Below are positions 22 to 54,545 of a DNA stretch of 64,000 nucleotides, in pieces. A program made the position numbers and the translations under genes. The stretch is from positions 138,300 through 202,299 of the forward strand of contig JBBHKE010000102.1 of NCBI GenBank assembly GCA_037447655.1, given 5' to 3'. The number at the start of each line of letters is the position of its first letter. Within the stretch, counting starts at the first letter, position 1. The notes below the pieces were generated by a model. That model was not told the origin of the DNA. It did not search any database and saw only the letters and a list, made by a program, of their open reading frames with translations. Source of the DNA: Zygnema cylindricum. Its lineage: Eukaryota > Streptophyta > Zygnematophyceae > Zygnematales > Zygnemataceae.

Positions 22-1872
22 TCATCTCAATTTTGGAGTACAAATTTTGGCAGTTGTACTGGTCCTTTTGGCCTTCGCGCGAATACTGTCAAGTGCAATC
101 TTAGTACATGCGAAATTATTTAAAGAGAGAAAGGATCCAGGTTTTATTTTGGTGCTAATGTCATCTTTGAAGAATTTGTTATTCAAAATGCTACAAGTGT
201 GTGAGCTTTCCAACGTGATCGGTGTTCCCGTGCAATTTTTTAATCCACCCCCAAGGTCCACACTGTCTAAGCAAACCTGGAGGCAAAAGAGATACAACAC
301 CCGCAATAAACATTATTAGCCACACTTGGTTATGATGCGAGTTTTTACGATTTGTGGAAAGATTTTGAATAGTAGAAATTGCTAATTTTAGTTTCAAGGG
401 AAAGGCAACCACAAAGGCCTACTTTGATTTTTACAACAGATTGTTAAGAGCATATTATACTCACATCCATGATAATAATTTGACAATCTTGGTCACGGGG
501 GAAGATATAAACAAAACATGTGCAAATTGCAAGTATGAATGAGGAAAGCCCTGTTCCTCTAAACTTCAAAAGGGAAAAAGTGTTTTGAAAAAATGACATT
601 CGCTTATTGATTGGACTTCAAAAAGTTGAATAGCTATTGATGTGTTGGAATTATTCCCACCTCTTGCTTAAAGGTGCTGTCATCGTTGGAATACAACCGG
701 ATTCGACCACAATACACACCAGGGTTTAGAGTGAAGAATTTTTTCACGTCTCCATCCATATATTTACGAATAATGATAGGACACGTTTCTCCCCGCTTAA
801 TGCTATATGGACGGGTACAAGGTCCACGAAATGGTAATTCTCCCTTCTCAATGCATATCTAGAAAGATGGATGTATTTTGCAAACACATAAAACAAATTC
901 ATCATTAGCTCCGTATGTCTACGTGATGCTATGTTAGCACAACATTATATAAAATCGTTAAAGATTAGGGAAAATTACATTGCACTTTCCAGGTAGGTTC
1001 ATTCATGCAACAAGATTTTCAAATGTATGGTTAAGGTATTCCAAAACCACCTGTTGAAAAGGTTTCAATTTTGAGCAGTCCAAGTCTGGATTTGGGGAAT
1101 TTGCACCATCGAGTTTTACGTAGTCGTCGATATTAAAAAGAAACTTTATGGAATCACATGTATCGCCCTGCAAATTCCGATTTTGCATAGATCAACTAGT
1201 TAAAGTAATTAAGTACTCAAATGGGATTGTTGAAATACAAGACCATAATAATGGGGCCAATAACCAAAATCATTATTGGAAAAGAAAAAAGAGTTGCATT
1301 GAAGCTCTAAAGCTCTAAGCCCATGCAAATAAAATCGAAGAAAAAAAAATCTTCAAGGTCCACAAGAACAAAAACTTACCTCTTCCACTGCATAAATTAG
1401 GGAGCACTCTATGGCGTTGGTGACGTTAACTTTGGCACCTTTTGGGAGAAGCTGGTTGCAATTCAAGTTCTGGAACTCACCCCAAATATGCTTTCCCAAT
1501 GGTATCAATACCATACATTTTTGCAAAAAAGAACTACTGCCATTGCGCCATTTCCTTTCCAAAAGCATAACAATTATGATTTCCCAATGGTATCAATACC
1601 ATACATTTTTGCAAAAAAAACCTACTGCCATTGCGCTACTTCCTTTCCAAAAAGTATAACAATTGCTTTTGGTTGAGCAGTTATTGAAGAAAAAATCCAA
1701 GAGTTTGACTCAGGATACGTCAAACAACAGGGCATTATAAGTAATATAAATGAAACCTTGTTTTGTTGTTTTAACATTTGTTGTGAGATGCCAAATGTGG
1801 TGGAGATTGTTGAGCAAGAAATAGATCCACTAACAGGCACAACATACTCCTTTGCCCCTATTGTCAAGGCGG
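22..1872 (-). CDS. Exons 17-21: four LysM-type modules and stop codon
   Basis: Exons 1872-1757, 1469-1380, 1167-1051, 858-661 and 276-22, with phase-0 joints after the first. LysM1: EYVVPVSGSISCSTISTTFG, then LKQQN joined to KNLNCNQLLPKG. LysM2: YAVEE joined to GDTCDSIKFLFN, then NPDLDCSKLKPFQQ joined to ICIEKG. LysM3: PYSIKRGETCPIIIRKYM, FFTLNPGVYCG, closing with VCL across the last joint. LysM4, the most divergent: PITLESSHTCSILNN, SLNNFAC and AKICTP. The paired cysteines and the LNPG..C patterns are those of eukaryotic, chitin-binding-type LysM rather than bacterial LysM. The stop is TGA at 24-22; polyadenylation signals lie outside the window. Several introns fall inside the modules. Confidence 0.8.
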
Positions 1873-3353
1873 CTGCAAAACGACAAGGTTGAATTGAAAA
1901 CATTGGTGGACATAATCGAGAACTTGTTATACTGTTTTAAAAACCAAGAAAGTATTTCGTTAACATCTCTACATTTTAAGGTAATGCATTTACATGCGAC
2001 ATTGATTCACCATTTGTTTATTCTTTTGTGTCTTTACCCGAATGTTTCTGCAATCTCATTTATTTATTTCAAAAACACTGCTTCTACGATTGAGCAATAC
2101 CCTAAAAACTGAAAGGCAAAAAACACACAAATACCCTAAAAACTGAGAGGCAAAAAACACACATCCAGTAACTTATTTTTATTTATTCTCATGTAATAAA
2201 GTAGACCTTTGATAATCCTGTTATTATTATAATAGTTATTATTATTATTATTTTTTTTTTTTTTTATTATTATAGTTTATTATTATTATTATTTTTTTTA
2301 TTTTTTTTATTTTTCTTTTATTTTTTAACACTAAAAAATAAGAAAAAACAAATTCTATGGTATTAAATTACGTGTAATACCACATCCTATCAACCCAATA
2401 AGTGATGCAAGGAGCCAAATGACAAAAAACAATAACTTAAATATTCCTCTACTTGTATGGTCTACTCTATTTGGGAAATGTAGATTTTGACAGTCTTTTG
2501 CATCATATACAATTGGAGAGAGGGAGAGGGAGAGGGAGAGGGAGAGGGAGAGTAAGAGGGAGAGGGAGAAGGAGAGCGAGAGAGAGGAAGAGGGAGAGGG
2601 AGAGGGAGGGAGATCGGGAGNNNNNNNNNNNNNNNNNNNNNNNNNNNNNNNNNNNNNNNNNNNNNNNNNNNNNNNNNNNNNNNNNNNNNNNNNNNNNNNN
2701 NNNNNNNNNNNNNNNNNNNNNNNNNNNNNNNNNNNNNNNNNNNNNNNNNNNNNNNNNNNNNNNNNNNNNNNNNNNNNNNNNNNNNNNNNNNNNNNNNNNN
2801 NNNNNNNNNNNNNNNNNNNNNNNNNNNNNNNNNNNNNNNNNNNNNNNNNNNNNNNNNNNNNNNNNNNNNNNNNNNNNNNNNNNNNNNNNNNNNNNNNNNN
2901 NNNNNNNNNNNNNNNNNNNNNNNNNNNNNNNNNNNNNNNNNNNNNNNNNNNNNNNNNNNNNNNNNNNNNNNNNNNNNNNNNNNNNNNNNNNNNNNNNNNN
3001 NNNNNNNNNNNNNNNNNNNNNNNNNNNNNNNNNNNNNNNNNNNNNNNNNNNNNNNNNNNNNNNNNNNNNNNNNNNNNNNNNNNNNNNNNNNNNNNNNNNN
3101 NNNNNNNNNNNNNNNNNNNNNNNNNNNNNNNNNNNNNNNNNNNNNNNNNNNNNNNNNNNNNNNNNNNNNNNNNNNNNNNNNNNNNNNNNNNNNNNNNNNN
3201 NNNNNNNNNNNNNNNNNNNNNNNNNNNNNNNNNNNNNNNNNNNNNNNNNNNNNNNNNNNNNNNNNNNNNNNNNNNNNNNNNNNNNNNNNNNNNNNNNNNN
3301 NNNNNNNNNNNNNNNNNNNNNNNNNNNNNNNNNNNNNNNNNNNNNNNNNNNNN

Positions 3354-3432
<79 letters not shown>

Positions 3433-6400
3433 AGGGTTGGGAGGGTGGAAGAAAGGCGAGAGAGAGAGAGCCAGGGGGAGAGCGGAAGAGGGTCAAAGAG
3501 AGAGAGGGGGAGATGGGGAGGGGGAGAGAAGGAGAGAGGGAAATAGGAAAAAAGGGCGAGAGAGAGAGAGTGAGAGAGAGAGGAGGTATTGTCCTCAAAT
3601 ATTGTCGCATACATAGGTTTTTAGGATTAAATGGACATTGCATATAATCCATCCGGAGATTCTCACGAGATCAAACCATCCGAGAGAAATAATATGTGTA
3701 CGGATATGGATGAATATAACACTATAAATTTTCTCTGATTCATTAATGAAACAAACGTGAAATGTAAGTTAGTATTGAGCCCCGCTTAACCGAAATCTAT
3801 ATATAATTTCGTAAACATAAATGTTTGTAAAACCTTTTATCTATCTGCATGAAAACTTCGTGCCTTCTGATAGGATTAGTATTAATTTTGAAAAAACTTG
3901 ATTCTCTGCGTAGAGCTGTTGAAATACGTAACTCATCACATTCACATTTAAGCGTATTTTTTCTTGTTTTGATTTTGAGAGCATGGAAATTGTAACCAAC
4001 CTCGGGCAATAAGACGAATAAGACGAAATGAGACAGAACCCACCTGGAAGACACGAGAGAGAACCGTCTGAATCGTCCGTAGCATATCCCACCAAACAAA
4101 CGCAAGCATATGTTCCCGGTTTGTTCTTAGAGTCCACGCAAGTTCCCATTGCACAAGGGTTCCGCGACGTAAAGGTACATGGAGAGGCTGAACAAAAACA
4201 AATGCCGTGAGGATCTTGAACCACTTGAATACTTAAGACAATTTACGTTTTAATAGACTTCCATTGGAAAGAGAAATGAATATCTATAATTGCTAGCGGT
4301 GATTTGAAATCTTATTCAGATTGTTCTTGAACAAGGCAAGCTCACCATTTTCTTTCGGATGTAAATTTCTTTGGGCTAAAGCTAAAGTTGCAAACTCACA
4401 AACACAATACTTGATTATAAAATACGTCTTTACCTCGCATAAGGCAGGTCTTCTGTCTTGATACTGGGCTTGAAAGATCGTATATAAAGCTTTGCCAGAT
4501 CTATTTCCCTTAGGCTAACTAAAAGTTGTTTTCTATGAGAAAATTATAACGTCTCCCCAATTTCTTTGAAAAATAGATTTTAACTTCAATTATAGTCATC
4601 TTATTCATTAGGGGTAGAAGATCCAGTAACCAAAAATGCTCAAAGTTTATTTTTCAACGGTTTATCTCAAAAATATGCGGACATCAAAAACAGAACTGGT
4701 AATTTTTTAAGTCAAAATTTCCTTCCTTAGATTCAGGGACCGTGAAGTTTTTTCTTCACCTATTAATCGACAATGTTATTTATCCACACTATTTTAAGGT
4801 TTTATTTACTATTTTATACACATGTATTTATATATATAAATAATGCATATAGAAACATAATTTTTATTTTATTTATAAATGTAATTGTAATGTTCATATA
4901 TAAATAAATACACGTGTATCATTCTGTCTGTGATGGAAAAGATTTGTCAAAGAATGTCCACGTGCTAATATCAGAAGGTCTGGGAAAATGAAACATTGAA
5001 TTCAAAGTAAATTTCACAGCGAAAACAATTATACAAATTTTGCATAATTGCTTATTGATGTTCACAAAATTCCAAAATAAAATGTTTGTCTATAGATTCT
5101 GCCTTTGGAAATTTGTAAGCTTTGTTTTTTCGATCAAAAAATATTCTTCTCGAATATGTGATACGTCAACTTTGAAAAATAAAAGCGGTGACATGACAAG
5201 TAAAAAACGGTGGCAACAATTTAAAAGTCTACGTGGCCAGAAAACGAAGGGTGATTGACCTTGAAAGAGCTATATGGGACATGGAGAATTGTTTCTGACT
5301 TTACGCCCTTCCAAATAAAAGCTTCCATTCTACGGTACTATAACAACGAAAAATCATAAAACAAAGGACAACAGGGTTTTTGAATCCCGTTTTACGCCAC
5401 ACATACATCCCGTTTTACGCCACATATATACAAAAGATATGCAGATAACATAATTGTTATTAAATGCTTTTAAGACTGGACATCTACAGCAATGTAGAGC
5501 ATGCTGACAACACATATACCGTTTCGTACCTGGAGCGCAAGTTTGTGTTCCGTCCGTGTTGTTCACTGCTACAAACTGATCCGTACAATCGCACGTGTAT
5601 GTTTTGTTGTTGGAAATGCATACACCATTACCGCATGGGTTCATGCTTCCAGGACCATTGGTAGAATTTTGTTGTATTTGCGCAAAATTTCTGACGTTGC
5701 AGCGATCGCTAGCTGAAATTCTCCAGGAAAAAAAAGAAAAAGTGTAAGGTTCTAATCAAGCCCCTTGACTTCAACCCAGATACGGCGGTACTTGCAAATC
5801 TATCAATCTCATATTGTAATATTCCATTGATTCACAAATTAGCATCTATGATTATAACCAACTGCTTGTATACGTCCTTTTTGGGTCACACAAAAATTGA
5901 AGCAAAAAGTACAACTTTTACGAACTTACGATTGGGTTTCATTATCGGTATGATAGCTGGTTGAGTATTAATTCCGCAAATCCCATAACCACTTGATATT
6001 TTAATACGCATGTACCCTTTATCTCCCCAGCTCGTTCCCCACGAATTCTGAATGAGCCAATATGGCGTCTCAGCTGTCAAATCATAACCAACGACTACCA
6101 CCGCATGGTCCACCCCATTCGAGAAGCAAGTCTCGTCATCAAAGACACCCTACACCAGGCCCGACCATACGTGTGTTACAACATATAACTGTATACCACT
6201 TCAAATTAGTCCATAAAATGGCATATAAGAGTTCCATGAAATCTGACACAACAAACACCTGGGGATAGCCCAGTGATCCTAAGAATAGCTGAAAAACTGC
6301 ATTTAAGTTTGCAGCAGCGATTTCAAGTTGGTTGCACATCATTAGTATATTCTTAAACGGCATTTGTGGATTGCAAAAAACTTAAAAATGTAGGACAAAT

Positions 6401-9400
6401 GCTCACTAGGTCAGGGTTGTAATTGTTGAATGCATCAGAGCTGGCCTCGATAGACACCACAGCTGGTTGTTGTTGAAGAGCCAATAAGAGCCCCTTCCAG
6501 CCATTCATTGGAATTCTATCATATGATAAGATTTGTAATCCGTTTAATTTCTGCACATGCGCAGTCATCAGACCATGAATGCTACGTTGTAAAAGGTTGT
6601 GAAGAATTTACAAAAAATAATCACACGTTGAGGGCCAAAAGATCAAAAAGAAAATTGAAGCCAACAAAAAAAGAGAGTAGACATAGAGTAGATGGAGGAT
6701 ATACGGAGCATAGTCACACATACTGTTAAAATTTCGCAGAATCCGGGATTCAATATATCCCAAACTAGGGAAAACTTGAGCCGGCCAGGGCTGAAGCCTG
6801 GGACCTTGACTTTACCTGTCAACGCTCTAACCACTGCGCCACCAGCCCGATATTGGGTCTGGCGGGTCCGTACTCATTTATATTTGAGTATATTCCGGGT
6901 GTGGACGGACCACATTCTACCCCGTAATGAACGGCAGCCACGTGCCAATCCCATAACTATGTGGTCGCAAGTTTTTTCATTTAAAAGTTGAAGAATAAGA
7001 AGGAAAGGGAGAGGAAAACATATACAAGGAAACCCTAAAATCTGAATGAGACAGGAGGTAAAACACAATGAGAATGTTTGGAAGTCATAAACATTGACTT
7101 ACATTGACCAATTTGCAGCTACTTTCATTTATAAAACTTTTTGATGATAAAAGACCAGTGCTTGCTGCGTAATCAAAAGCTTCGTTTGGCCAACCTCCTC
7201 TAGCACAAGAAATTTTTGAGCAGTTAAGCATTTGCTCTGGTGGAAAGTCGGGAAGAGGTTGTCTTCCCGCGTTTGCAATGTAATAAGCATGTTCAATGGC
7301 GGTGAAAGCAGAAACGATCCAGCATATATCTTCACATCGCAAGAAAAAAATGATGAAAAAACAAACATTTTAGATTCTCAACTATTAGCATAGTGTGCCA
7401 TGGTGTCTATTCACAAGAACATGACTATTGTGCTTTTGAAGAGAAAAAATGAAAGAGTTGAATTTCAAAGTAGGAACCGACATTTGTTTTCAAGCAAAAT
7501 AAATAAAAAAAAAACGAGTTTGAGTATTTACTGCAACTATGTTGATCCTTGACTTTGTTGCTATCCAGTTGAGCAACCCAATTCCATGAGGTCGCCACCA
7601 GCCACGATGGTTTCTTATCTTTAGAATACAAATATCCAGAACTCGCATAGCGGAAAAAATTATTTGTTTTGTTAGACAGTGTTTGCGGAGGTGTCAATAG
7701 TCCCAACGCGCGAGGTTCTGCATAATTCATTAGAAGAATAAGAACAAAAATATAAAGCCCTGTATCAAAAAGCATACCTACCATATCGTCGTCACTACAA
7801 TACCTCATAAGTTTTTTGTGTTACTATGACCTACTGACTTAAAACTATTTAGTGCATGACAATGTGTTAGTCCTCACTATAGGTTAACTATGATGATGGC
7901 CCTACATATTTAGGAGAACAAACTAATTTCACGAATAAACTATTGCTTAAATACTCAATATATCACACAATTTCGGCAAACTTGCGACATGCTTGTAAAA
8001 CGATCATTCCCATGTGGGCCAATGTCAACTTGGTAAAATTTAATACTTAAGCGATGAACAAAAATAGGCGTTTTTGAGCCATACATCAACTCGGCTTCAC
8101 ACATGCTGAGGATTAAATCACGATTTGTTGTGGGGGATTTGAGAGGCTTGTTTCGAAAGGAAGCTATTATAACACATGAAGTACCTTTTTTTGGTTATCG
8201 TCCACATGTTTTGCAAAAAAAATAGAAAGTGTGGCACCATACCAATATTGTGGATGCTGTCCATAGTGTAGTGACTTACGGAAAGTACATGTGTTGTTGA
8301 AAATTACGTCCGTGGAATATTCATCATCGCATATGCATGCTCTATTCACTCCAGGACAGGTGCCGTGGCCGCCACATGCACCCATTGGTTGAGAAGCATT
8401 ACAGAACTGCAAACACTGGGATTTATTCCTTTGCACCATTGACGAACAACTTTTCAGCAAAGGGTCGTCGACGTTGAAGCAGTTTACCTTAGTCGCGTTG
8501 CAAATATCTGGAGGATCTTGGTAAACTATTGCAGAACCAGAAATAAAGTTGTTTCTAAAGTCAAAGACAGGCTTAGATATCCAAGAATCTAGCGGGAATA
8601 AAATAAGGCCACTGAAAAGGTTATCAGCCAAATTCCTGCACAGAGTCCAATAATAAAATTATTAACTTCATGTTTACAACATTTGACATAACTTCCCTGT
8701 TGTAAAACTTGAAAACTGATAAGGAAGCCCATCGTTATGAAAAATACTCATCAAAAAACCTAAAAGAAAAAATTAAAAAGCGAAACACTCATCATTCGAA
8801 CATATTAATTTTCTTTAAAATAAAATAAGATAATGAAAATTGAAATCACTTAAATGTTCATGTGTATCTTCTGGTTGCTTTAAAAGCTTATCACAACCCA
8901 CACCAGTCCCCGCCCTTTCTCCCCCTCTCACTTTAATGGCAGCTTTACTCATTTATTATTTAAGTTCTACACATCGACATAAGACATTTGTTCAAATGAC
9001 ATGCGTCTTACAATTGATAAAAAGATTTTACAAATCGACATAATACATTTGTCAAATGAAATGCGTCTTACAATTGTCGAAGAAATCTAAGTCGACCGAT
9101 GGACGTTGGAATGCTTCCAATCAACCGGTTGCCAGATAGATCTCTGTGACATCCTCAGCCCCATACCTCGCACATACTTTATATTCAATACCAGTTACAA
9201 ATTCACACGAAAAATTTGTAAGATATGATTGTGCCACACATTACAGTTTACTGTATCCAACATAACATAGCGCCTGTAAGAGTAAAAAGACATATTTTCC
9301 TCATTGATTTTCAGTTGTTAATAAGACAAAAGCCACTCCAATTCTTTCTCAGCTAGTGAAAGAGGTAGAATTAGCATTTTTCTGGTAAAGTAACTAGATC

Positions 9401-12400
9401 ATCTTAGCTCTTTGACCAGATTGGTTTTACAACAACAAATTACAAATATAGAAAATTAATATCGCCCAACTGTTCATACTGATATTTGTTTGTTTGAAAC
9501 CCATCGCCCCCCCCCCTGCTCCTCTCCCCTCTTTCAATGAAAAATTTATTTGTTCAACACTAAAATTTCAAAAACCGACACAAGATTTCGCATATTATGT
9601 GCCTTACAAGTATTGAAGGGATGACATTTGGCCGATGGATGATGGAATGCGTCCACTCAGTTTGTTGCTGTGTAGCCATCTGTCACACCCGCATCCTCAC
9701 CCTCAAGCCCTTGAAACTCCTTGAAGCCATTGCCAAATGTAAATTTACATAAAAAAATAAAAAAAATAGTATGCATATTACAATTTTAGTCATTCAAAAT
9801 TACACAGCCCACATCAAAAGTAAGAATTTTTTCATTGTTTTAGGTTCTTGGGACGACGAGTTTGAGACCGCCTTAATGATAACTTCAATAATTGCTATTT
9901 AGAAAAATAATAAAAAAACTAAATTTAGATTAATCACTAACACTTATAATTATTAATAATTGCAACTACGGTTTTACAATAATACAAAAACTAAACCTTG
10001 TTCAAACTTAATTTTTACTTAATTGAATTCTCTCCCCCATCTTCCTCCCTTCCCCCGCCCATCCTGCTACAATGATAAAAATTCTTAAAAAAAAAAAAAA
10101 AAAAATCATTTATATTATTGCAATTAATTAATCTATCTGGTAGTTGATTTATCCTACAAGATTTCAAGGGATTTTCCAGTTGGTACAAAGGTGTGTTTCT
10201 CTGACTTGTCTTACAAGGTATTAAGAAATGCGAGTTGATCGATGGACGATGGAATGCTTCCACTTAATTGGTTGTTATATAGAGATCTGTGTCACCCCTC
10301 CAAAATGCAAGTTACTTAAAATTGGCTTATGGTTATCATGGATGAATTTTTATAATCATCCAAATTTTATGTTTAGTTACTATTAAATAGTAATTATTCA
10401 TTCGTTCTATAGTATTCATAATTACCTCTTATTTAGCCCTACTAGTTACTATTATTTTTAATGTTTGTGCTTAGTTTTCAATGTTAAATATTTATCATCA
10501 CTATTTGTGAAAGAAATGTTATCTGTTTATTTTAATTAAGTATGTTTATATTAATAAATTACTAAATTTTAATTAGTATCACTATCGATTAATGTGATAG
10601 ATTATTTTCATTAACTCAATTTATTACTATTATCATCTATTCATTGCTATTATTTGCAATTACTTACAACAATTTGAATATTTTATTCATTTGTCTACGC
10701 TATAAGTTGGGATATTAGTTTTTTTATAATTAGCATTATTATTAATTGGTTATGATCATAATTAGTTTCCACTTGCATGTTACTACCCCTCCCTCCCCCT
10801 CGTCCTTTCTAGACAGGCCTGCCCGATAGGATAGACAATACACATTTTAAAGTATCAAACTTGTTTCTCTTTTTGTTATTTGGTACAAAATGTGCCTGAG
10901 AATGTTTCAAAGAAATGCTTCAATAATTTTTTTTTTTCTTTCATATTTCTTACAAGTATTTGAGGGATGTCAATTGACCGATGGACGATGGAATGTTTCC
11001 ACTCAACTTGTTGTCATATAAGAGTCTGTGGCACCTCACATCCCCACCATCAAACCGCCCACATTTTAGTCAAACAAGCTTACTATTATTGTTAGTTATA
11101 TTTTCAATAAATAACTATTCACGCTTAATAAATGTAAATCATCATTATTAATTACTATTTAATTAATTTTATTTCATCTTTGACAACCCAAAACCCCACC
11201 ACAAACCTATGCTATTTTGCTATTATTGTATATTGCCATTCATCAATTCATTTATTACTTACTACTATTGATCATTATTATGAATTGTTAAAGATTGTTA
11301 GACTTTATAAATCATTATAATCTTTTGTAATTCATTGTTATAAACATGAACTACCAGTAATTATCATTATCAATAATTATCAATGGTCTTTATAGAAAAT
11401 TGTAAAAATTACTTTTTTAATTTTTGAAATTAATGATTTTGATCATTTATTTTCATTATTACTGATTTTTAGAAATAAATGATAATTATTTTTATAATTA
11501 TTATTCTTAATAATTATTTTTTGCTTTTCTTTTCATTGTTACCACTTGTTATTCTTACAACTCATCGATAATTTGTTTTTTTTAATTCTTGATCTACGAT
11601 CTTCACAGTAATTATTCTTTAGTAGTCATCACATCACGACGTTGTCACATGCTTGTAACGCCCCGTCCCCCCCCTCCCCTCTCCCTTTTACTCAACCAGT
11701 TATTATAGTGAATACTTTTGAAGGTATTGATCTTATTATTTATTCAGTTGGTAGATAATGTGTCGTTAATGCGCCTTACAAGTCCGTGAGGGATGACATT
11801 TGACCGATGGACGATGGAATTCTCCCACTCAAATTGTTGGCAGATAGCTCTCTGTGACACCCCGCCCCCAAACCTACCGAGTGCCTTTTAGACAAATGGG
11901 CTTCTTACAATTAAAAATCAAGTTTTATTGCTTTCCATTTTTTAAGTTTGATTAACACTAACTATTATCTAGCGTCTTTAATTACTGTTAGATTTAATTG
12001 TTATATGTAATTTATATTATTTTCGTTGTTGATTATAATTAACGTCAAAATTATTTGTTTTACTTTTCTTTTTCTTACCTCCTTTGTTATTAACTTGTTA
12101 TGATCACAACTAGTCTTTACTTGCTTTAACCCCCCTTTATCCCCCACCACAACCCTTAAAGTAGTCAATATCTTTTAAATCTATCAATCTTGTTAACTAT
12201 AGTATCAATCTTCTTTATTTGGTAGAACACATGCCTTAAAAGATTTCGAGGGATATTTCAAGGTAGTAAAAATGTGCATTTCTGCTATATATGTCTTACA
12301 GGTATTGAAGGGATATCAACTTTCCTATGGACGATGGAATGCTTCCACTCAAATTGGTGTACCCCAGACTTCTGTGACACCCCCCATCCCCACTCGCAAA

Positions 12401-12423
12401 ACTCCGAAGCACAGTTAACACAA

Positions 12424-12456
<33 letters not shown>

Positions 12457-15400
12457 ATACAATAATAATCATAACAATAACAATAACAATAACAATAACA
12501 ATAACAATAAAAATAACAATAACAATAACAATAACAATAACAACAACAACAATAACAATAACAATAACAACAACAACAACAACAACAACAACAATAACAA
12601 TAACAATAACAATAACAATAACAATAACAATAACAATAACAACAACAACAACAATAACAATAACAATAACAATAACAATAACAATAACAATAACAATAAC
12701 AATAACAATAACAATAACAATAACAATAACAATAACAACAACAATAATAATAATAATAATAACAATAATAATAATAATAATAAAAAAAATAATAATACTA
12801 ATAATAAAAATATTAATTATAAAAATAATAATGTTAACCAATAATAATAATAATAATAAAAAAAATAATAATACTAATAATAAAAATATTAATTATAACA
12901 ATAATAATGTTCGCAAACGGAATATAATTGTACTTATCCAATATCTAACTTGAGCAATTCAAAAAACAAATTTTCACCTCTTTGCTTCTACGAATACAAT
13001 ATCACTCCTAACTGTCACACCACCTTCCTAAGTCAAAAAGCACTGAGTAAAAATACAACAAATGAAGTTTGCTTTTCCAACACATATAATATTTTATAAA
13101 GTTGTTAATTTATAAAGTGATGATCGCTTCGAACCACCAATGCACCTCTCTTTTTGAAAAATTACCCCTCCAGTACGGAGTTTTTTCTTTTCAAAAATAT
13201 ACAAGTTTTTATTCAATTTTCCAATGATTGAAATTGTTCAATTATTCATCATTAATTGTCTATTTTTATGCGAAAAAGAATGATTCCTTTCCCCCTCTCT
13301 CCACCTTGTCACAATACCAACCCAATCCTTGAAACTTAAAAGGGAATAAAATTATTGTCAACATTTTCCATCCCGTTTAGGTAAGAGACTCTGATGAAGG
13401 TGGCATTGCTACTATTCTAATAGTTCTTCATATGAGATGCATCCCTTTCCCAATCTGCACTCACAAGTATGTCATGTGTGTGAGGTTGCCAATCTCCGTA
13501 GCAATGCTCCCCTTTAGGTCCTTGTAAAATATATTACTACACCCCCCCCCCCCTTGTTCAGTCCTTTTATCCCATATCCACACTTTCCCTCTCCTTCTTT
13601 CTACCTTCCCCGCACTAACCCACTGCCCCCTCATCCGCCTCAAAGCACATCACAGTAGTAGAGAAAAATCAAAATTCATTGTTAGATTTAGTGCGATTTC
13701 CCCTTCCTTTCTCTCCTGACGAGATCCTTTTTTCCATCCCCCTTCCCTTTCCCTCTCCCTTCCCCTTCCCCCTCCCTCCTCCCTTCTTGATGTTTTCCTT
13801 CAATTTCTCTCGTCAGCCTTCCCCCCTTCCCCTCCTCACTCCCTCTTCTAATGAGGTCTTATTTCTCTTCAACCCTTTCCACCTCCATCTTCCCTCCTCC
13901 CACACTTGATGATATCCCTTTATTCTATTCTCCTCCCCCTTTTGCTTCCGCCTCCCTCTCCGAAGGGGGTCTCTTACTCTCTCGCCCTTTTCCCATGTCC
14001 TTCTCGTGGGATCCTCATTCTCTCCCCTCCTTCCTCCTCTGTCTCTCTCCCCTATCCACCTTCCCTCACCTGATGAGATCCCGCATTCACTTCCCCGCCC
14101 CTTTTCCCCCCCATCCCTCTCCTAAGGAGATCCCCTCTCCCCACCCTTTCCTAACAAAATCCTTCAATCTCTTCCCCCCTCCCCCTCCCCCTCCCCCCAC
14201 CCCTCACTTTCTAACAATAAACCGATCAGTGCCCTTCCACTCCCTTCCAGATCCACCCTGCCTCCCCTCCTTCCCTCCTCCCCTCTCCCTTCCTTCCTCC
14301 ACCTTCCCTCCCTCCTCCTTCCCTCTTCATTCCTCCACTCCCATTCCCCTCTTTCCATTCCTCCACCACCCCCTCCCGCCCTCCCTCCACCCCCCCCCTT
14401 CAAATCCACCCTTCTTTCCATTGGATTGATTCCTCATTCTCTCTATTCCAATCCCATTCGACCTGGGGAAAATGAGCCGGTGGTGGCTGAACCTGGGGAG
14501 CTTTTAAGCTGTCGGCGCTTCACCTGCCACCAGCTCATTAAGTCCTGGCGGGTCCGTACCCATTTATTTCGGGCAGCTTCGAGTATGGTATTACCATGAT
14601 GCCTCCGTGGAACGGCGTAATTTGATCAACACTCTCCCCAACCCTTCCTTTCATGCCAAGGGCAGCTGCTCACGCCTTTTTCTTTCCTTCTCTTCTCTCT
14701 CTCCCCACTACACCCTTCTGGTTTGCAAATACCTAAGCCTCGGCGCCCAAGTATCTCTCTCAAAGCGCGAGAGTGCACGCAACCTATCATTCAAACATCA
14801 GTGCGAAATTTAGCCCGAAATTCAGTTCGAATTCAGTACGAGATTCAGTACGTGATTCCTGTTGTTTTATAAACTCCGGTCTCTCAGAACACCTGAGTAA
14901 GAGAGACTTTTAGAATTAGAAATATTTTTGAATGTCTAAGTTCTAAATGTACTGAATTTAGTATGGCAGTCTGACACATGTCAACAGGACATTAATTTAG
15001 AAAGGAAGGTTCGCATACTATCAATTTGAAGACGTCAGATTAATATCCGACGATACATACACAAAGCGAAGAACTGGGAATGTCGAAATAGAATCAACAG
15101 TGTCGGGTATTGGTAGAAGAGATTCGCAGATCCTACAGTAAAGTTCAGGTGATCGGCAACAGTAAACCTTATTGGAAGAGTACGAATATGGGACCACTTG
15201 CAGAATCAGAAAAGTACAAGGATGACATTATGGAAAGTAAAGATGTTGGTGGAATGTTTCCACCAGAGTACAACATGTCCTATTCGAATTAAGTTTTAGT
15301 GTGTACAGTGTAGATTAGAATCTTAGAGGACAAACCTGTGTTGTTCGTAGCGTAGTACAAAAGGTGGAAGTAGGTACTTTAGTAGGACAGTACGATGGTG

Positions 15401-16150
15401 TACTACACAACGTTCTATCGGTTAGTCAGATAGTTAATGAGATCTATTAGTATAAATTAGGACTTAGTGAAATGTAGGATAACTTGTATGAGTTCACAAA
15501 GGAAGAAAAGTGTCTTTTATGGCCCTCTTTGTATGAGTGTTACTTTGTGTCTGATCAGAGTTTGTGTGTGAAACTCTGGCAGATTTATGAGTTAAGTGTA
15601 AGCTCTAAGTGAGCTGTGTTTTGAGTTAAAGGAACTCATTGGTGATTAAGTGTCAGTTGGTCAAAGCTGACCATTAGTGGGGTACTTTTGGGTAGTCTTC
15701 TGTTTATCCAATGGGAGACTCTGCAGCTTCTGGTAGTGCCCCTGTTGCTGTAGAACAACAAATCCATCCGGAATCATCTCTGCAGCAGAGAGTGCACGCA
15801 GGGATCGCCACCCACATCCAAAACACGCGACGGGAATCGTCGCACGCGAAATACACTCCGTCACATTTGATTTCGGGAAACTTCGCCTTGTTCGTGACGG
15901 CCGCCTTCACCGCCTCCAGAGTCGACTCTGCAGCAGCGTAGCCTCACACGTGTCAGAGGAGCGAAGGAGCTAATCAGATTTTATATCCGCGAGTGTGAAG
16001 TCATTGACCGCAGAAAAGGGGGAAGAGGAACGGTAAAGGAGGGGAAAACCTACTGTCAGGCTCTGGCATGGTTCCTACGTATTCGCCCACAACGAGTGCC
16101 ACGTGGCACGCCAAGATCAGCACTGTCGTGAAGACCATGTTGGCCGCCAT
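22..16150 (-). CDS. Secreted LRR-EGF-papain-EGF-LysM protease, 21 exons, 982 aa
   Basis: Complete spliced gene read on the minus strand. Exons, 5' to 3' of the gene: 16150-16054, 15927-15816, 13536-13465, 12371-12300, 11851-11780, 11025-10954, 10286-10215, 9679-9608, 9143-9072, 8635-8280, 7717-7532, 7329-7103, 6550-6407, 6149-5930, 5712-5530, 4187-4044, 1872-1757, 1469-1380, 1167-1051, 858-661, 276-22. Every intron is GT-AG, every phase matches, and the chain totals 983 codons including TGA at 24-22. Order by residue: signal peptide 1-22, LRR cap 33-70, LRRs 70-265, EGF 316-354, C1A peptidase about 398-605, EGF 642-674, EGF 688-722, four LysM-type modules 733-974. Catalytic set is Gln415, Cys421, His557, Asn577. 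Inferred role: extracellular protease that binds GlcNAc-type glycans through LysM and a ligand through the LRRs. Only about 43 residues separate EGF1 from the mature peptidase, so no I29 propeptide is evident. An extra exon could hide in the gap at 2621-3353, although the flanking exons already join in frame. Confidence 0.85.
2210..2335. repeat. AT-rich TTA/T-run low-complexity tract
   Basis: Runs of TTA/ATT and long T homopolymers lie in intron 16 of the protease gene. No coding signal. Confidence 0.8.
2514..3598. repeat. GA/GGGAGA microsatellite containing a 733-base N gap
   Basis: GAGAGG/GAGGGA repeats (2514-2620) run into Ns (2621-3353), then resume as pure (GA)n (3354-3427) and impure GA to about 3598. 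The whole block lies in intron 16 of the protease gene, between the third EGF exon and the first LysM exon. The gap length is an assembly estimate, and an undetected small exon inside it cannot be excluded. Confidence 0.9.
4044..5712 (-). CDS. Exons 15-16: second and third EGF-like domains
   Basis: Exon 15 (5712-5530) encodes SDRCNVRNFAQIQ, then an EGF-like module, NPCGNGVC ... YTCDC ... DGTQTCAPG (residues 642-674). Exon 16 (4187-4044) encodes a closely similar one, NPCAMGTC ... YACVC ... DGSLSCLPG (688-722). Both exons begin with two bases and end with one, the classic symmetrical phase of shuffled EGF exons, so they probably arose by exon duplication. Acceptors follow good pyrimidine tracts. 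Donors are GTACGA and GTGGGT. The domains sit between peptidase and LysM modules as an extracellular spacer. Confidence 0.8.
5930..7717 (-). CDS. Exons 11-14: papain-family (C1A) peptidase domain
   Basis: Four exons: 7717-7532, 7329-7103, 6550-6407, 6149-5930. Spliced, they give a full C1A peptidase. KVKDQHSC-N-ICW carries the oxyanion Gln415 and nucleophile Cys421, six residues apart as Gln19 and Cys25 are in papain; the Cys region forms only across the 7532/7329 junction, where A joins AT. FPPEQMLNC and GGWPNEAFDYAASTG follow the family pattern. FNNYNPDL joins GVFDDETCFSNGVDHAV across 6407/6149, placing His557. WLIQNSWGTSWGDKGYMRI carries Asn577. The usual CGSCWAF is NICWIVSAF here, which is unusual at the positions flanking the nucleophile. 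The peptidase should be active if the catalytic residues suffice, but activation without a visible propeptide is an open question. Confidence 0.88.
6766..6950 (-). mobile_element. SINE-like tRNA-derived element, copy 1
   Basis: Read on the minus strand, 6841-6831 is TGGCGCAGTGG, a perfect RNA polymerase III box A core followed by TTAGAGCG. About 40 bases on comes a box-B-like GGCTTCAGCCC (6798-6788). The upstream segment GTACGGACCCGCCAG is shared with a second copy near 14.46-14.62 kb, as are the order and spacing of the boxes. The element lies in intron 12 of the protease gene, in the same orientation as the gene. No full tRNA cloverleaf is recoverable, so it is read as a SINE head rather than a tRNA gene. 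Confidence 0.5.
8280..8635 (-). CDS. Exon 10: last LRR, Cys-rich linker and first EGF-like domain
   Basis: The acceptor TGCAG before 8635 leaves one base, in phase with the LRR exons, and the frame begins NLADNLFSGLILF (last LRR), then FDFRNNFISGS. A linker rich in cysteines and N-glycosylation sites follows (CNATK, KSQCLQFCNASQ), then an EGF-like domain, residues 316-354, with the six-Cys pattern GACGGHGTC ... ACICDDEY ... NNTC. The exon ends at donor GTAAGTC with one codon base, joining exon 11. This exon is the physical proof that LRRs and EGF belong to one protein, because both lie in one uninterrupted frame. Confidence 0.85.
9072..13536 (-). CDS. Exons 3-9: seven single-LRR exons of 72 bp
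   Basis: Seven exons of exactly 72 bp: 13536-13465, 12371-12300, 11851-11780, 11025-10954, 10286-10215, 9679-9608, 9143-9072. Each starts with the last base of a codon and ends with the first two bases of the next (usually TT of Leu), so each encodes one 24-residue plant-type LRR and any can be duplicated without shifting frame. Repeat cores: LKGSIATEIGNLTHMTYL, LSGSIPSSIGKLISLQYL, LSGRIPSSIGQMSSLTDL, LSGNIPSSIGQLTSLKYL, LSGSIPSSIDQLAFLNTL, LSGRIPSSIGQMSSLQYL, LIGSIPTSIGRLRFLRQL. The first is the most divergent. Donors are GTAAG or GTGAG. The introns share sequence with one another, so the array grew by duplication of exon plus intron. Confidence 0.85.
12421..12911. repeat. TA and AAC/AAT microsatellite cluster
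   Basis: (TA)n at about 12425-12450, then (AATAAC)n/(AAC)n to about 12745, then (AAT)n. The end is a 70-bp tandem duplication (about 12767-12836 and 12841-12911) of an AT-rich sequence. It lies in intron 3, directly beside the LRR exon at 12300-12371. The long open frames here are artefacts of the repeats. Confidence 0.9.
13680..14430. repeat. Pyrimidine-rich (C/T) tract with degenerate units
   Basis: About 750 bp of almost pure pyrimidine on the plus strand (purine on the minus), within intron 2 of the protease gene. Irregularly spaced spacers of the type TGATGAGATCCC recur, suggesting an old minisatellite of roughly 70-100 bp units. Both strands are open as Pro/Ser-rich or Gly/Glu/Arg-rich frames, but these follow from the base bias. 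Confidence 0.7.
14461..14620 (-). mobile_element. SINE-like tRNA-derived element, copy 2
   Basis: Same family as the element near 6.77-6.95 kb. On the minus strand it has GTACGGACCCGCCAG, then a box-A-like GGTGGCAGGTGAAGCG, then a box-B-like AGGTTCAGCCA (14495-14485), then CGGCTCA and a TTTTCCC end. It lies in intron 2 of the protease gene. The two copies share the frame of the element but have diverged considerably, so they are old insertions. Confidence 0.5.
14640..15710. other. Intron 2 remainder with an unrecognised 60-codon frame
   Basis: Unique-looking sequence between copy 2 of the SINE and exon 2. A plus-strand frame (15110-15292) reads MVEEIRRSYSKVQVIG ... ending MFPPEYNMSYSN. I do not recognise it, and it could be a scrap of an inserted element. 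Short direct repeats of AATTCAGTACG type lie at 14820-14850. No supported gene. Confidence 0.3.
15816..15927 (-). CDS. Exon 2: LRR N-terminal cap of the LRR-protease gene
   Basis: Translates to about 37 residues: STLEAVKAAVTNKAKF, then KCDGVYFACDDSRRVFW. This matches the shape of the plant LRR N-terminal cap (a helix with A/L/V spacing, then Cys, G-V, C-D, R-V). It ends with two bases before donor GTGGGT, exactly the phase needed to enter exon 3, so the joint reads RRVFW-I-NIFYKDLKG, as in plant LRR proteins where the cap runs straight into the first repeat. The reading frame left open past the donor stops soon after, as expected for intron. Confidence 0.7.
16054..16150 (-). CDS. Exon 1: signal peptide of the LRR-protease gene
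   Basis: The ATG at 16150-16148 sits in a good plant start context (agccATGGC). It opens a peptide with a short polar N-terminus and a hydrophobic core of about 16 residues (VFTTVLILACHVALVV), then a small residue and GEYVG, a typical secretory signal with likely cleavage near residue 22. The exon ends at 16054 with donor GTAGGT, leaving one base that joins the two-base start of exon 2. I see no clear TATA box in the 100 bp upstream. Confidence 0.75.
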
Positions 16151-25465: not shown

Positions 25466-26861
25466 TGTTGATATTTGGGTATTTTCTAGGTCTTTATTAG
25501 ATAGAAAAGAGTAGAGGCAGTCTGCCCCTGACTCCCTTCTCCAAGCCCCCACACTTGTCGTAGTCACTGAAGGCTGGAGAGGGAGCTAGAGCCATGGCTG
25601 CCTAAGCTCTCCAGAGAGACAGGAATAGATAATATAGGTATGTTTACCAAAATGGTATTTGACAGACCCAGGAATTGATCCTGGTACCTACCGTCGGTGA
25701 ACTGTCCCGTAGACGTTAGCTTTGTCCATTTATTCTAGGACTAGTGCTAGTACACATAGGGTTTAATAGATATTTATATAGTTACAGGTAGGGAATTCCA
25801 TTTAACTGGATTACGGTATTCAGGGCATAGAAACAGTTGTACTTTTAGCACCGGACGAAATAAATAGTACGGACATTTATTTCGACGGTCCGTTTTAGTT
25901 ACGATGTGAATCGACGGCCGTGGTGCAAGCCGGGATTCCGGAGTGGGCGACATGGCGTTTTCGGGCACCGCCACCTCGGATGACACGTGGCAGGTTCCTA
26001 CGAGATTGCGGGATTTCCGGAACGCGAGATGACAAATCTGGATGTGACAAATGTCATAGTATGGCGCTGTCGTACATTGGTCGTACAGAAAGTACTCCGG
26101 CACCTGTACTTTCCTGTACGGTACAGACATGATTGGTCCGTACTTCAATTGGTTCCATGTAGACGCGGATTTCAACGGTCAACGCGGAACGACGACCGTT
26201 GAAATTCAACGGTCAACAGAAATTAGTTCGGCGAGTCAAAATGACACGCGGCATCATCCTATAGGATGCCCGGCGAAGAAAAATGACAGAACTGCGACGA
26301 CTTATTTGCCACGTGGCAGACCAAGAGTGGTGCCGAATATTTCCGTTCATAAAGTACGGCGGCTACCGTACTTTAAATGTACATTATGTAGTGTGCTGCA
26401 ATTTTATTGGCCTAGAGGGGTTGTGAGTAGCTTTTAGGACTTAGAATATTTTGGTAGGTAGCCGCCTCTCCCAGAGAGCATCTTGTATAAAAGGCAAACT
26501 TTGGTCAGCCATAACTATCAATTCAGTTGACCAAATTCAGTGATTTTTGTTGCTGCGGACTCAGGGGAGTCCAGGCTACACAGGGGTGTAGTCGGTCAGA
26601 GTTTTTGCTTGCCTGGGTGGCTGCATTTCTAAGGGAAAGTCAAAGTGGGGAATGTTATCCTAAACTACTATTCTAATTTTGCATTGTGTAGTGAAACTGA
26701 GCACACAGAAAGTCTTATTTCACAGGGGTGAAGCTGTAATGGGGTTATGATTTTCAAGGGGTCAATCATTTGGGTTTATATTAACTTGGAGTCGGCACTA
26801 TCTAGATTAGCTTCCTTAAGACCTGCGAATTCTGTGTGGCAATGGAGCCCATAGAATTTCA
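25466..26861 (+). repeat. 5' LTR, 1396 bp
   Basis: Contains TATAAAA (26486-26492) as a likely promoter, preceded by G-box cores CACGTG (near 25986 and 26312) and GGTCAA motifs (W-box complement) near 26178 and 26208. A tRNA-like GATCCTGG segment lies near 25677. The first ~440 bp differ clearly from the 3' LTR whereas the remainder is nearly identical. Confidence 0.9.
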
Positions 26862-26865
26862 GGTT

Positions 26866-28866
26866 ATGGGCCCACCATCTAGGGTGCCTATGTTCGATGG
26901 AACAGACTTCACTTATTCGGAGTTTACAATGGTGGGATTGCTTTTCGAGAAGCACTTATGGGGAATTGTTTCGGGACAACTGAGGTGTCCGCCACCGGAC
27001 TTTGGTGGACCTCACTATGGAGATTCATCGGGGACATCCCAAAGAACCAACCGGATTTCAGATGTTACGGAAGGTGAAGGGAAGAACATTGCCATGGAAA
27101 AGGGAAACGGGGAAAAGGAAAAAGGAACACCGATGGTGAGGGGAGCTAGGCTCTCGGCTACGGTTCCACTTGTACGGACTATAACTGAACCAAAAACTGA
27201 AGAAAATGATAGGAAAATATGGGAATACAAAAACACTGTAGCAAAACATCTCATACTTAGATACGTGTCTAAGTCTATAGCTATCACTCTTTTAAATCTA
27301 ACCAAGTCTTCGGAAATTTGGGAAACACTAATTCAAATTTATAAGAGTGAGACTATACAGAGGCAGCAATTAGTAAAACAAGAAATAGAGGCCTATGTTT
27401 ATAAAAGCGGTAGCATGATAGAGTTTTGCAATGATATTGCTGCGTTATATGTTGAGCTTGCTAGTGCAGGGTATGTAGAATCTGAGGAGAGAAAGATTAG
27501 CACACTAATCATGAAACTTCCCGATGAGTATGAAAACATAATTAACCGTATGCAAGAAATGGATGGCTCCTCATGGACTTGGAGCATTACCATGGGAATG
27601 ATTCTTGTGAGGGAAACCACTTTGGAGCTTCGTAGGGGAAGTGATAGGGTGAATGCACTAACGGCTGGTGGTGACTGGCGGAAGCATGATGAGAGGAATG
27701 GCGGTGACAAGCGGAAGCGTGATGAGAGAAGTGATGGTGATTGGCGGAAGCGTGATGTGAGGAAGAAAGACAAAGGTAAACCTTATCGGAACTTTGGTGG
27801 AAAGAGAGGGAGAGGAAAAGAAAGGGGAGCTTTGAAAAAGGGGGTTTGCTTCTTTTGTAGGGAATCGGGTCACTATATCGAGGAGTGCCCTCGATTGGAA
27901 GAACTTAGAAGTTGGAATGTGGATGAGGAGGAAGAAGAGAAAGAGGATGAAGATTTTTTGGAGCTTCTCCGCATCGGTAGTATGGAGAAGGGTGAAAAGC
28001 ATACAGAAATTCCACGAAGACAACAGTGTGCTTTTGGAGGTATAAGGGAAGTAAAAAGAGAGGAGGTACTTGAGAGAGTTAGACTTGATGAGGATGTGAA
28101 GGAGTGTAGAAAGTATGACTTAGAAATGAGAAAGTCAGATCTAGGATCCATAATTGAAAAAGGGAAAAATAAAAATAATGAGGATAATTTTATAGATATT
28201 TTGGAAACAAAAAATTGGTCGGAAAGGGAGAATTCAACGGATTCGAAGGATAGGGGAAAAGAGGAATATTTGATGAAAGGTTTAGGGGAGGAGAAATATT
28301 TATTGGGAATAAAATTAAAAGGTGATAGTGGAAAGAATCCCATGGGAGAGAGTAAGGAATGTTCAGAAAATGGGATGAGTATCATGGATAAAAACATGAG
28401 TACGGAAGACGTTGATCTTATGAGGAACTTAGAGGGGACACTTGGTTTTGGGAAATTTGACATCACTAATGGGAGTGATGCCGTTTATGAAGGTGCGCCT
28501 GGAAAAGGGTTAGCATCGGGGTGTGCATTGCAGATCGGAGATGGGGCTGGCTGTTTGAACAACAAGAGGGAAATCAGACTTTGTGTGGATGGAAAAGGGG
28601 TGAGGTGGATAAAATCGTTGCTCGGATTTATGAAAAATGGGATGCTAAATAAAATGTGTGATCATCAAGATGGAATGTTTCATTTAGCTCATCTAAAAGA
28701 CCTTTTAAATTATGAGGGTATTGTCTTAAAGTTTTATGAAAAGAAAAGGAAAAAGAAAAGAAAACGGGGAGGGAGTGTTTGTTTATTTGTGTGTGGGAGT
28801 AGAAAGGAAAATAGACTAGAAAAAAAGGGGAGTGTTGATATTTGTGTATTTTCTAGGTCTTTATAA
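26866..28866 (+). CDS. Copia-type Gag polyprotein with CCHC zinc knuckle
   Basis: One open frame of about 666 residues from ATG 26866 (an alternative ATG at 26842 lies within the LTR) to TAA 28864-28866, running a few codons into the 3' LTR. It begins MGPPSRVPMFDGTDFTYSEF, the usual Copia gag opening. A capsid-like stretch (NLTKSSEIWETLIQIYKSET, MKLPDEYENIINRM) follows. Three 33-bp repeats of a DWRKRDER type form a basic linker. The zinc knuckle CFFCRESGHYIEEC is at 27847-27888 (CX2CX4HX4C). The C-terminal ~330 residues are acidic, then basic, without recognisable enzyme motifs. An intact frame suggests recent activity, with enzymes supplied in trans. Confidence 0.85.
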   Translation: MGPPSRVPMFDGTDFTYSEFTMVGLLFEKHLWGIVSGQLRCPPPDFGGPHYGDSSGTSQRTNRISDVTEGEGKNIAMEKGNGEKEKGTPMVRGARLSATVPLVRTITEPKTEENDRKIWEYKNTVAKHLILRYVSKSIAITLLNLTKSSEIWETLIQIYKSETIQRQQLVKQEIEAYVYKSGSMIEFCNDIAALYVELASAGYVESEERKISTLIMKLPDEYENIINRMQEMDGSSWTWSITMGMILVRETTLELRRGSDRVNALTAGGDWRKHDERNGGDKRKRDERSDGDWRKRDVRKKDKGKPYRNFGGKRGRGKERGALKKGVCFFCRESGHYIEECPRLEELRSWNVDEEEEEKEDEDFLELLRIGSMEKGEKHTEIPRRQQCAFGGIREVKREEVLERVRLDEDVKECRKYDLEMRKSDLGSIIEKGKNKNNEDNFIDILETKNWSERENSTDSKDRGKEEYLMKGLGEEKYLLGIKLKGDSGKNPMGESKECSENGMSIMDKNMSTEDVDLMRNLEGTLGFGKFDITNGSDAVYEGAPGKGLASGCALQIGDGAGCLNNKREIRLCVDGKGVRWIKSLLGFMKNGMLNKMCDHQDGMFHLAHLKDLLNYEGIVLKFYEKKRKKKRKRGGSVCLFVCGSRKENRLEKKGSVDICVFSRSL

Positions 28867-40960: not shown

Positions 40961-40966
40961 ATCATT

Positions 40967-54397: not shown

Positions 54398-54545
54398 AGA
54401 GAGAAGGTAGAAAATAAAATAGCTATATTGGTGTACAGACCAGATAGAGAAATGGTAGCAGGTATGATGACGAAAGCTATTCCCTCTCCTATATTAATAT
54501 TTTGCACGGAAAAATGTGAACTGAAGCTTAAAATTGAATAAGTAT
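52930..54545 (+). pseudogene. Decayed Copia reverse transcriptase-RNase H, copy 1
   Basis: Starts EPQTYSEAINNPLVLREVDG, then LIGCKWVFKLKLN, then an open RT stretch (53255-53566) with MDFKTTFLHGELKEKMFIRQ, LHGLKQALRQW and IAIYVDDLLVL. After a frameshift come TRPDIAAAVEVISKSLNDP and the RNase H part FCDNQAAIAIATNPNYHFKVKHKDI, ending near KIE-TAA at 54541. Several stops and shifts. Gag, protease and integrase are absent. Confidence 0.85.

Follow-up and report, generated by a model that had tools for sequence, protein, structure and literature searches.

A gene on contig JBBHKE010000102.1 of Zygnema cylindricum encodes a protein in which leucine-rich repeats (LRRs), EGF domains, a papain-type (C1A) peptidase and a LysM tail follow each other on one chain. 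The stretch analysed here, called the window, comprises the 64,000 nucleotides at positions 138,300 to 202,299 of the forward strand of that contig (assembly GCA_037447655.1). In the initial annotation, made from the letters of the window, the product was taken for a single odd protein; it is one member of a large genomic family with relatives in streptophyte algae. Our favoured reading, to which we give a probability of roughly 0.55, is that this is a streptophyte-algal family of secreted modular sensor-proteases, tethered through LysM, which has expanded and swapped its front ends and likely forms an extracellular defence repertoire.

Gene structure and domain order

Independent rebuilding of the gene on the minus strand, from window position 16150 to 22, gives 21 exons that splice to 2964 nt and encode 987 residues. 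All 20 introns are GT-AG, the phases are consistent, and the only stop codon stands at the end of the frame. The 21 exons and the single frame from signal peptide to stop agree with the initial annotation; its length of 982 residues does not. Exon 2 has two possible AG acceptors, and 982 residues in place of 987 result from use of the second. The proposed continuity of LRR and EGF within exon 10 is borne out, as one frame runs from the last LRR into the fused EGF1, and the joins of EGF to peptidase in exon 11 and of peptidase to EGF in exon 14 are both seen in the rebuilt model. The domain order is signal peptide, LRRNT-like segment, LRRs, EGF1, papain-type peptidase, EGF2, EGF3 and LysM tail. 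Intron phases follow the domain blocks: 2-2 in the seven LRR exons of 72 nt, 1 into and out of the peptidase block, 1-1 in EGF exons 15 and 16, and 0 in LysM exons 18 to 21. The exons and one assembly gap are as follows (L023 is a paralogous locus).

Exon 1, 16054..16150, minus strand: signal peptide (MAANMVFTTVLILACHVALVVG...), phase 0 in and 1 out; homologue in L023 with 64% identity; hydrophobic peak at residues 3-21.
Exon 2, 15816..15942, minus strand: LRRNT-like segment (C-x6-C ... DDSRRV), phase 1 in and 2 out; the L023 homologue keeps a C..W.G...C-like pattern; no Pfam score in the window.
Exon 3, 13465..13536, minus strand: LRR 1, 72 nt, phase 2-2.
Exon 4, 12300..12371, minus strand: LRR 2, 72 nt, phase 2-2.
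Exon 5, 11780..11851, minus strand: LRR 3, 72 nt, phase 2-2.
Exon 6, 10954..11025, minus strand: LRR 4, 72 nt, phase 2-2.
Exon 7, 10215..10286, minus strand: LRR 5, 72 nt, phase 2-2.
Exon 8, 9608..9679, minus strand: LRR 6, 72 nt, phase 2-2.
Exon 9, 9072..9143, minus strand: LRR 7, 72 nt, phase 2-2.
Exon 10, 8280..8635, minus strand: last LRR or cap and EGF1 in frame, phase 2 in and 1 out; both splice sites recovered in 14 paralogous loci, 350-371 nt.
Exon 11, 7532..7717, minus strand: family-specific N-terminal segment (FFRYASSGYLYS...), then the start of the peptidase with oxyanion Gln420.
Exon 12, 7103..7329, minus strand: peptidase with catalytic Cys426 (CNICW).
Exon 13, 6407..6550, minus strand: middle part of the peptidase.
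Exon 14, 5930..6149, minus strand: peptidase, containing catalytic His562 and Asn582; the genome has at least 105 near-full-length homologues, this one included.
Exon 15, 5530..5712, minus strand: EGF2, phase 1-1.
Exon 16, 4044..4187, minus strand: EGF3, phase 1-1.
Assembly gap, 2621..3353, no strand: 733 N inside intron 16.
Exon 17, 1757..1872, minus strand: first part of LysM1, phase 1 in and 0 out.
Exon 18, 1380..1469, minus strand: end of LysM1 and start of LysM2.
Exon 19, 1051..1167, minus strand: LysM2.
Exon 20, 661..858, minus strand: LysM3 by alignment.
Exon 21, 22..276, minus strand: LysM4-like segment by alignment, degenerate here; stop codon.

A missed exon hidden by the gap in intron 16 is formally conceivable. 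A long AT-rich microsatellite (ATAACA-type, window about 12430-12910) lies inside an LRR intron.

Domain content, catalytic residues and predicted secretion

Pfam scoring of the whole protein assigns residues 404-611 to Peptidase_C1 (140.4 bits against a cut-off of 20.7, E 1.2e-40) and places LRR_14 (88.5 bits, E 4.7e-25) and LRR_1 (73.0 bits) above their cut-offs. LysM is found with 34.8 bits in the whole protein (E 1.6e-8) and with 43.9 bits in the isolated tail (cut-off 20.9), and all five LysM tails in a family alignment (A5) match LysM. EGF2-3 give 23.7 bits as an isolated piece against a cut-off of 21.5 and 19.4 bits in the whole protein; isolated EGF1 gives 16.0 bits (cut-off 25). The LRRNT-like segment of the window protein has no Pfam score for LRRNT_2, and P0002, a relative described below, scores LRRNT_2 at 33.3 bits. 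Our assignment of EGF1 and LRRNT is based on the cysteine pattern, on the paralogues and on P0002. Among the domains named in the initial annotation, Pfam recovers Peptidase_C1, LRR and LysM, EGF2-3 as an isolated piece only, and neither EGF1 nor LRRNT_2. The same annotation counted four LysM modules: the LysM block stands, and the number four comes from alignment with relatives.

The catalytic set Q420, C426 (CNICW), H562 and N582 is complete, and the catalytic Gln, Cys, His and Asn are retained in the 12 paralogue cores compared. Changes next to these residues were seen in two loci: the Asp before His is Asn in L015, and in exon 12 of L016 Arg stands in place of the Trp that follows the catalytic Cys (CNTCR), the sole such Trp replacement among the 12 cores. 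Among 15 relatives the Gln/Cys pattern is present in 14 (P0016 has Glu), and the His and Asn patterns in all 15. An I29 prodomain is usual, although not universal, in C1A peptidases. In the window protein no PF08246 match was found in the whole sequence at a limit of E 5, where HMMER filters drop most matches above 0.1, and neither this protein nor the 15 relatives contain an ERFNIN-like pattern.

The protein is predicted to be secreted and soluble. This prediction is based on the single hydrophobic segment at the N-terminus, 46 cysteines and 15 N-glycosylation sequons; no other 19-mer is as hydrophobic as residues 3-21, and the best later one averages a hydropathy of 1.2. One secreted chain, as proposed initially, is the prediction that we retain. 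A membrane receptor was rejected, as there is no second strongly hydrophobic segment, and Pfam finds no kinase in the window protein.

A large gene family in the source genome

The source assembly (352.8 Mb, 2689 contigs) was searched in two ways. The PF00112 profile, applied exon by exon, gave at least 150 matches scored out of 303 candidates. With the exon-14 protein as query, at least 105 homologues including the window gene cover at least 65 of 73 residues with at least 51% identity (150 of 162 candidates scored); the number 105 is a hand count from the table, after which matches are partial or of lower identity. Some contigs carry several family members, with five on C39.

Sequence was read at 23 loci beside the window (L011-L020, L022-L025, L028 and L030-L037), 24 in total. 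The first batch consisted of 20 stretches, mostly from the top of the table and not random, one of which (L021) is the window's own flank; L030-L037 came from lower ranks. Among the 19 PF00112 loci of the first batch, L026 and L027 carry divergent C1-EGF-LysM genes that do not belong to the 105, and L009 and L010 are ordinary I29 papains. The latter differ clearly from the window gene, and its identification as an ordinary I29 papain was rejected. EGF2 or EGF3 follows the peptidase in all 20 loci with enough sequence (L034-L037 end earlier), and LysM follows EGF2/3 in 17 of these 20; the stretch of L032 stops at EGF2. Ahead of the peptidase, EGF1 is present in 18 of the 24 loci, with LRR exons in front of it in 17 (L030 begins at EGF1).

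Fifteen paralogous loci of the first batch repeat the series of exons 10-21 in its order for as much of it as their stretches cover, and most of these exons have lengths identical to those of the window gene. Specifically, exon 14 has 220 nt and exon 15 has 183 nt in 15 of 15 loci. For the remaining core exons, wherever both splice sites could be placed, lengths differ by no more than about five codons, with the exception of exon 18 of L012 (45 vs 90 nt); several exons of L012, L013, L014 and L018 did not resolve. It should be noted that splice sites were sought only in the phases of the window gene and within 45 nt of expectation, so that agreement in phase is partly by construction and agreement in exact length is not. 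Exon identity to four paralogues is 85.5-86.3% as compared to 71.8-75.0% in the intron flanks, and third codon positions change most. At the two ends of the gene, exons 1-2 have homologues in L023, the window gene shares a C-terminal ...CTPKLR/K-stop with L013, L020 and L024, and L023 ends with CIPKLK-stop; the L019 stretch ends within exon 21.

The ratio of nonsynonymous to synonymous change (omega) differs between the domains. Its median is 0.21 in the peptidase, 0.22 in EGF2-3, 0.33 in EGF1, 0.41 in LysM1-3 and 0.65 in LysM4, calculated from pairs with a synonymous divergence (dS) of 0.02 to 1.5, which are not independent of each other. The peptidase is under purifying selection. A pseudogene or decayed copy was rejected for the window gene on account of the intact frame and low omega, with LysM4 looking relaxed.

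Exchange of front ends and variation of the LRRs

Over 3249 bp that span the LRR exons and exon 10 and end inside intron 10, the identity between L016 and L020 is 98.8%; past this point it is 77-87%. The left end of the match is the edge of the L020 stretch. In the 12 genes with exons 10-16 all resolved, the tree of exon 10 and the tree of exons 11-16 reject each other in the approximately unbiased (AU) test (p = 0.00024 and 0.0042). LRR/EGF1 halves have recombined between peptidase cores.

A different front end is seen in L032, where a legume-lectin exon of phase 1-1 meets the first peptidase exon in phase 1, the point at which LRR/EGF1 is joined in the window gene. According to tables compared by eye, a same-strand lectin exon, often paired, lies 2.4-4.6 kb upstream in 12 of the 105 loci; the sequence was read for L032 only. 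The available part of PMC11096116 gives 26 domain architectures with legume lectin for Zygnema.

The LRR arrays vary in length as well as in sequence, with seven LRR exons in the window gene, at least eight on C1505 and at least four in L018. Across 41 distinct LRR exons, entropy is 2.93 bits at six concave positions and 1.06 bits at all other positions, or 1.69 bits at those other positions that had not been used to pick the exons. At five concave positions omega is 1.56 as compared to 0.65 elsewhere (p = 0.022 for the contrast in 14 disjoint nearest pairs); this test covers the 28 exons, out of 41, for which another exon within 18 differences was available. The ligand face of the LRRs is variable, and the omega contrast suggests positive selection on it.

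Relatives in other algae

Residues 262-987 were compared with about 5.8 billion proteins, and 15 matches were obtained among 2856 candidates. The best are P0001 and P0002, transcript proteins from EukProt that contain LRR, peptidase and LysM and have 40-41% identity over 90-92% of the query region. The C1-EGF-EGF-LysM core is colinear with P0001-P0003. P0018 from Closterium sp. NIES-67 has the order LRR, EGF-like, Peptidase_C1, EGF-EGF, LysM, its EGF-like segments being recognised by eye below the reporting threshold. The initial annotation knew of no described protein with this order. P0001, P0002 and P0018 have the domain order of the window protein with a different number of LRRs, so the order itself is not confined to the window; as to a description, a thin literature search found none for an LRR-EGF-papain-EGF-EGF-LysM protein or for such a repertoire.

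In P0005-P0009 (Closterium) and P0016 (EukProt) one or more legume-lectin domains stand ahead of the peptidase, with or without LRR. After the peptidase these proteins have EGF-like pairs and a LysM-like tail by sequence, in which Pfam scores LysM only in P0009 and P0016; the latter has two lectin domains in front of the same core. P0011 and P0012 (Closterium) are C1-EGF-LysM proteins with C-terminal EF-hands, either another combination on the core or a mis-joined gene model. In a second search with the core alignment, 7993 candidates sharing most words were scored, and in the best 120 of 245 matches EukProt members, Closterium members and P0003 grade into ordinary, mostly I29-bearing papains. 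No land-plant protein with the C1-EGF-EGF-LysM core is among the matches listed in the two protein searches.

The peptidase groups with plant papains by sequence (ficin, E 1.6e-31), and its closest solved relatives include latex papains and dionain-1. A predicted structure of P0002 has a mean predicted local distance difference test score (pLDDT) of 72.2 and a predicted template modelling score (pTM) of 0.49, and its arrangement of domains is not reliable. The peptidase part of the model matches chymopapain (template modelling score 0.92 by target length) and actinidin, and the LRR part matches the ectodomains of MIK2 and FLS2 (E about 2e-19). NCBIfam LRR-effector matches in P0002 were set aside, being far below cut-off and reflecting LRRs only. 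Among solved structures, the LysM profile matches two LysM chains named 'Chitinase A' (5bum, 1.3e-6; 4pxv, 0.0011).

Proposed mechanism and alternatives

We propose that these proteins share a constant part: a C1A endopeptidase in which no I29 prodomain is recognisable, then two EGF spacers, then a LysM tail of about four modules. The tail would tether the enzyme to glycans containing N-acetylglucosamine, which could be of microbial origin (chitin or peptidoglycan) or belong to the wall or mucilage of the alga itself. The front end would be interchangeable and meet the core at a phase-1 intron, consisting either of an LRR array with EGF or of one or more legume-lectin domains. It may bind a variable ligand and either bring it to the protease or switch the protease on, which would then cut the bound target or a nearby protein while LysM retains the complex at the glycan surface. 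As no prodomain is recognisable, the enzyme might be kept latent by its front end or by FFRYASSGY, the family-specific segment ahead of the peptidase. The family would have grown to about 100 loci with front ends exchanged by recombination, a conserved protease and a variable LRR face, and its likely job would be at the cell surface, in recognising and cleaving wall proteins or proteins of non-self (microbial) origin. Copy number, multi-member contigs, exchange of front ends and variable LRR faces are the reasons why we favour defence at the cell surface. A role as sensor would receive indirect support from the conserved protease, the variable LRR faces and the swapped front ends.

Several observations weigh against this reading. 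The LysM modules past the first are weak in Pfam (single stretches in the tail give one match at E <=0.1 and two at a lax E <=5), LysM4 is represented by a degenerate segment, and exon 21 of L014 is interrupted by a stop codon. LysM was not found in L011 and L031 within the 1.2-1.4 kb read past EGF3. EGF1 was not found in 6 of the 24 sampled loci: L032 has a lectin in its place, L031 begins at the peptidase, L023 (C1991) has signal-peptide and LRRNT-like exons followed by the peptidase, with no recognisable LRR or EGF1, and has apparently lost its front end, and in L033, L036 and L037 no known front end was recognised. Eight of the 105 exon-14 homologues contain an internal stop. The count of 105 may include redundant contigs: the pairs C364/C825, C2114/C1803 and C1635/C1272 give matches of identical score, which suggests redundant contigs or very recent copies. 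Omega at the concave LRR sites does not differ significantly from neutrality (p = 0.17). Moreover, developmental roles fit the same domain anatomy.

Such a role is the basis of the alternative that survives best, remodelling of the wall or extracellular matrix, including during conjugation or mating. LysM would anchor the enzyme to the alga's own wall, the LRR or lectin ends would pick wall glycoproteins, and expansion would reflect relaxed duplication or diversification in development rather than defence. Targeting to the matrix is a task for which LysM, EGF and lectin modules are well suited, purifying selection on the protease agrees with it, and recombination and expansion alone name no role. 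However, about 100 copies with five on C39, swapped ends and variable LRR faces are generally more typical of recognition repertoires than of matrix enzymes, and we consider this alternative unlikely, though worth serious attention.

An improbable explanation is a digestive or defensive protease whose LRR or lectin ends are substrate exosites only, abundant because it would be secreted to attack microbes or to release nutrients, with no control by a ligand. The lack of a recognisable I29 prodomain would permit a constitutively active core, and latex papains and the digestive dionain-1 are among its closest solved relatives; by itself this explanation does not account for front ends having been exchanged at the intron 10 boundary. 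We see even less room for a fused guard-decoy, in which the LRR end would watch the attached papain domain and sense a pathogen inhibitor bound there, cleavage being secondary. The model is the tomato LRR receptor-like protein Cf-2, which perceives the inhibitor Avr2 only with the help of Rcr3, a secreted papain-like protease, as stated in the available part of PMC11371160; here both kinds of domain are on one chain, which would be an analogue of Cf-2/Rcr3. Against it, the window protein has no transmembrane or signalling part, and omega is lowest in the protease, whose catalytic residues are retained, whereas the LRR face varies. Wrong joining of neighbouring LRR, protease and LysM genes is largely refuted and has next to no chance, despite the gap in intron 16 and the fact that transcript support for the order comes from relatives and not from the source species: paralogues keep order, strand and mostly exon lengths, the transcript proteins P0001 and P0002 keep the order too, and a chimeric gene model was rejected on these grounds.

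Other features of the window

A second array of 72-nt-type LRR exons lies at window 34427-39959 on the minus strand, with no convincing match to EGF1, peptidase or LysM nearby. It is probably a truncated paralogue or an LRR fragment. As a part of the main gene it was rejected, since it lies upstream of the signal-peptide exon and lacks such companion matches. Retrotransposon-like frames of Ty1/copia type were recognised by eye on the plus strand at 26806-28866, 53183-53566, 54062-54541 and 56707-57102, with a CCHC motif and segments resembling reverse transcriptase and RNase H. A long minisatellite-like block at about 40900-45460 gives repetitive frames on both strands (...SSILDPR..., ...GSRIEDR...).

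Comparison with known systems

Cysteine proteases with LysM modules have been described from volvocine algae. The available part of PMC6362431 describes combinations of LysM and C1A in algae and states that C1A-lectin combinations were not retained in vascular plants. Like the window protein, these algal peptidases carry C1A and LysM on one chain; that part of the source mentions no LRR front end, swapping of front ends or large repertoire.

With the plant papain-like cysteine proteases (ficin, chymopapain, actinidin, Rcr3) the window protein has the C1A fold and the catalytic residues in common. The plant enzymes carry an autoinhibitory prodomain, according to the available part of PMC11371160, and no LRR or LysM, whereas the window protein has LRR and LysM and no recognised prodomain. 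Judging from the model of P0002, the LRR fold would be shared with the MIK2 and FLS2 ectodomains. In contrast to plant LRR receptors, the window protein lacks a transmembrane or kinase part and has a protease instead. As in recognition through Cf-2 and Rcr3, an LRR part and a secreted papain-like protease come together in the window protein; in tomato these are two proteins, and here one chain with LysM and EGF added.

Land-plant immunity employs extracellular LRR receptors and, as a separate arm, secreted papain-like proteases. It is possible, and we suggest it only tentatively, that in the sister lineage of land plants soluble immune sensor-proteases evolved into a large repertoire that recombines: about 100 papain-LysM cores with exchangeable ends, either lectins or LRR arrays whose ligand faces are hypervariable, would unite recognition and response on one secreted chain, beside receptor kinases or replacing them. 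If this is true, both arms would be joined on one molecule in a close algal relative, and about 100 loci diversified through duplication and exon-boundary recombination would give a testable picture of microbe recognition before land plants. They would also be a natural set of swaps between recognition end and protease to learn from. Soluble recognition domains and a protease on one chain are known from Limulus factor C and other modular pattern-recognition serine proteases. The likeness is an analogy only, as factor C has a serine protease fold and belongs to an animal lineage and the window protein to the papain family; if our reading is true, the algal family would be a papain-based counterpart of the pattern-recognition protease cascades of animals.

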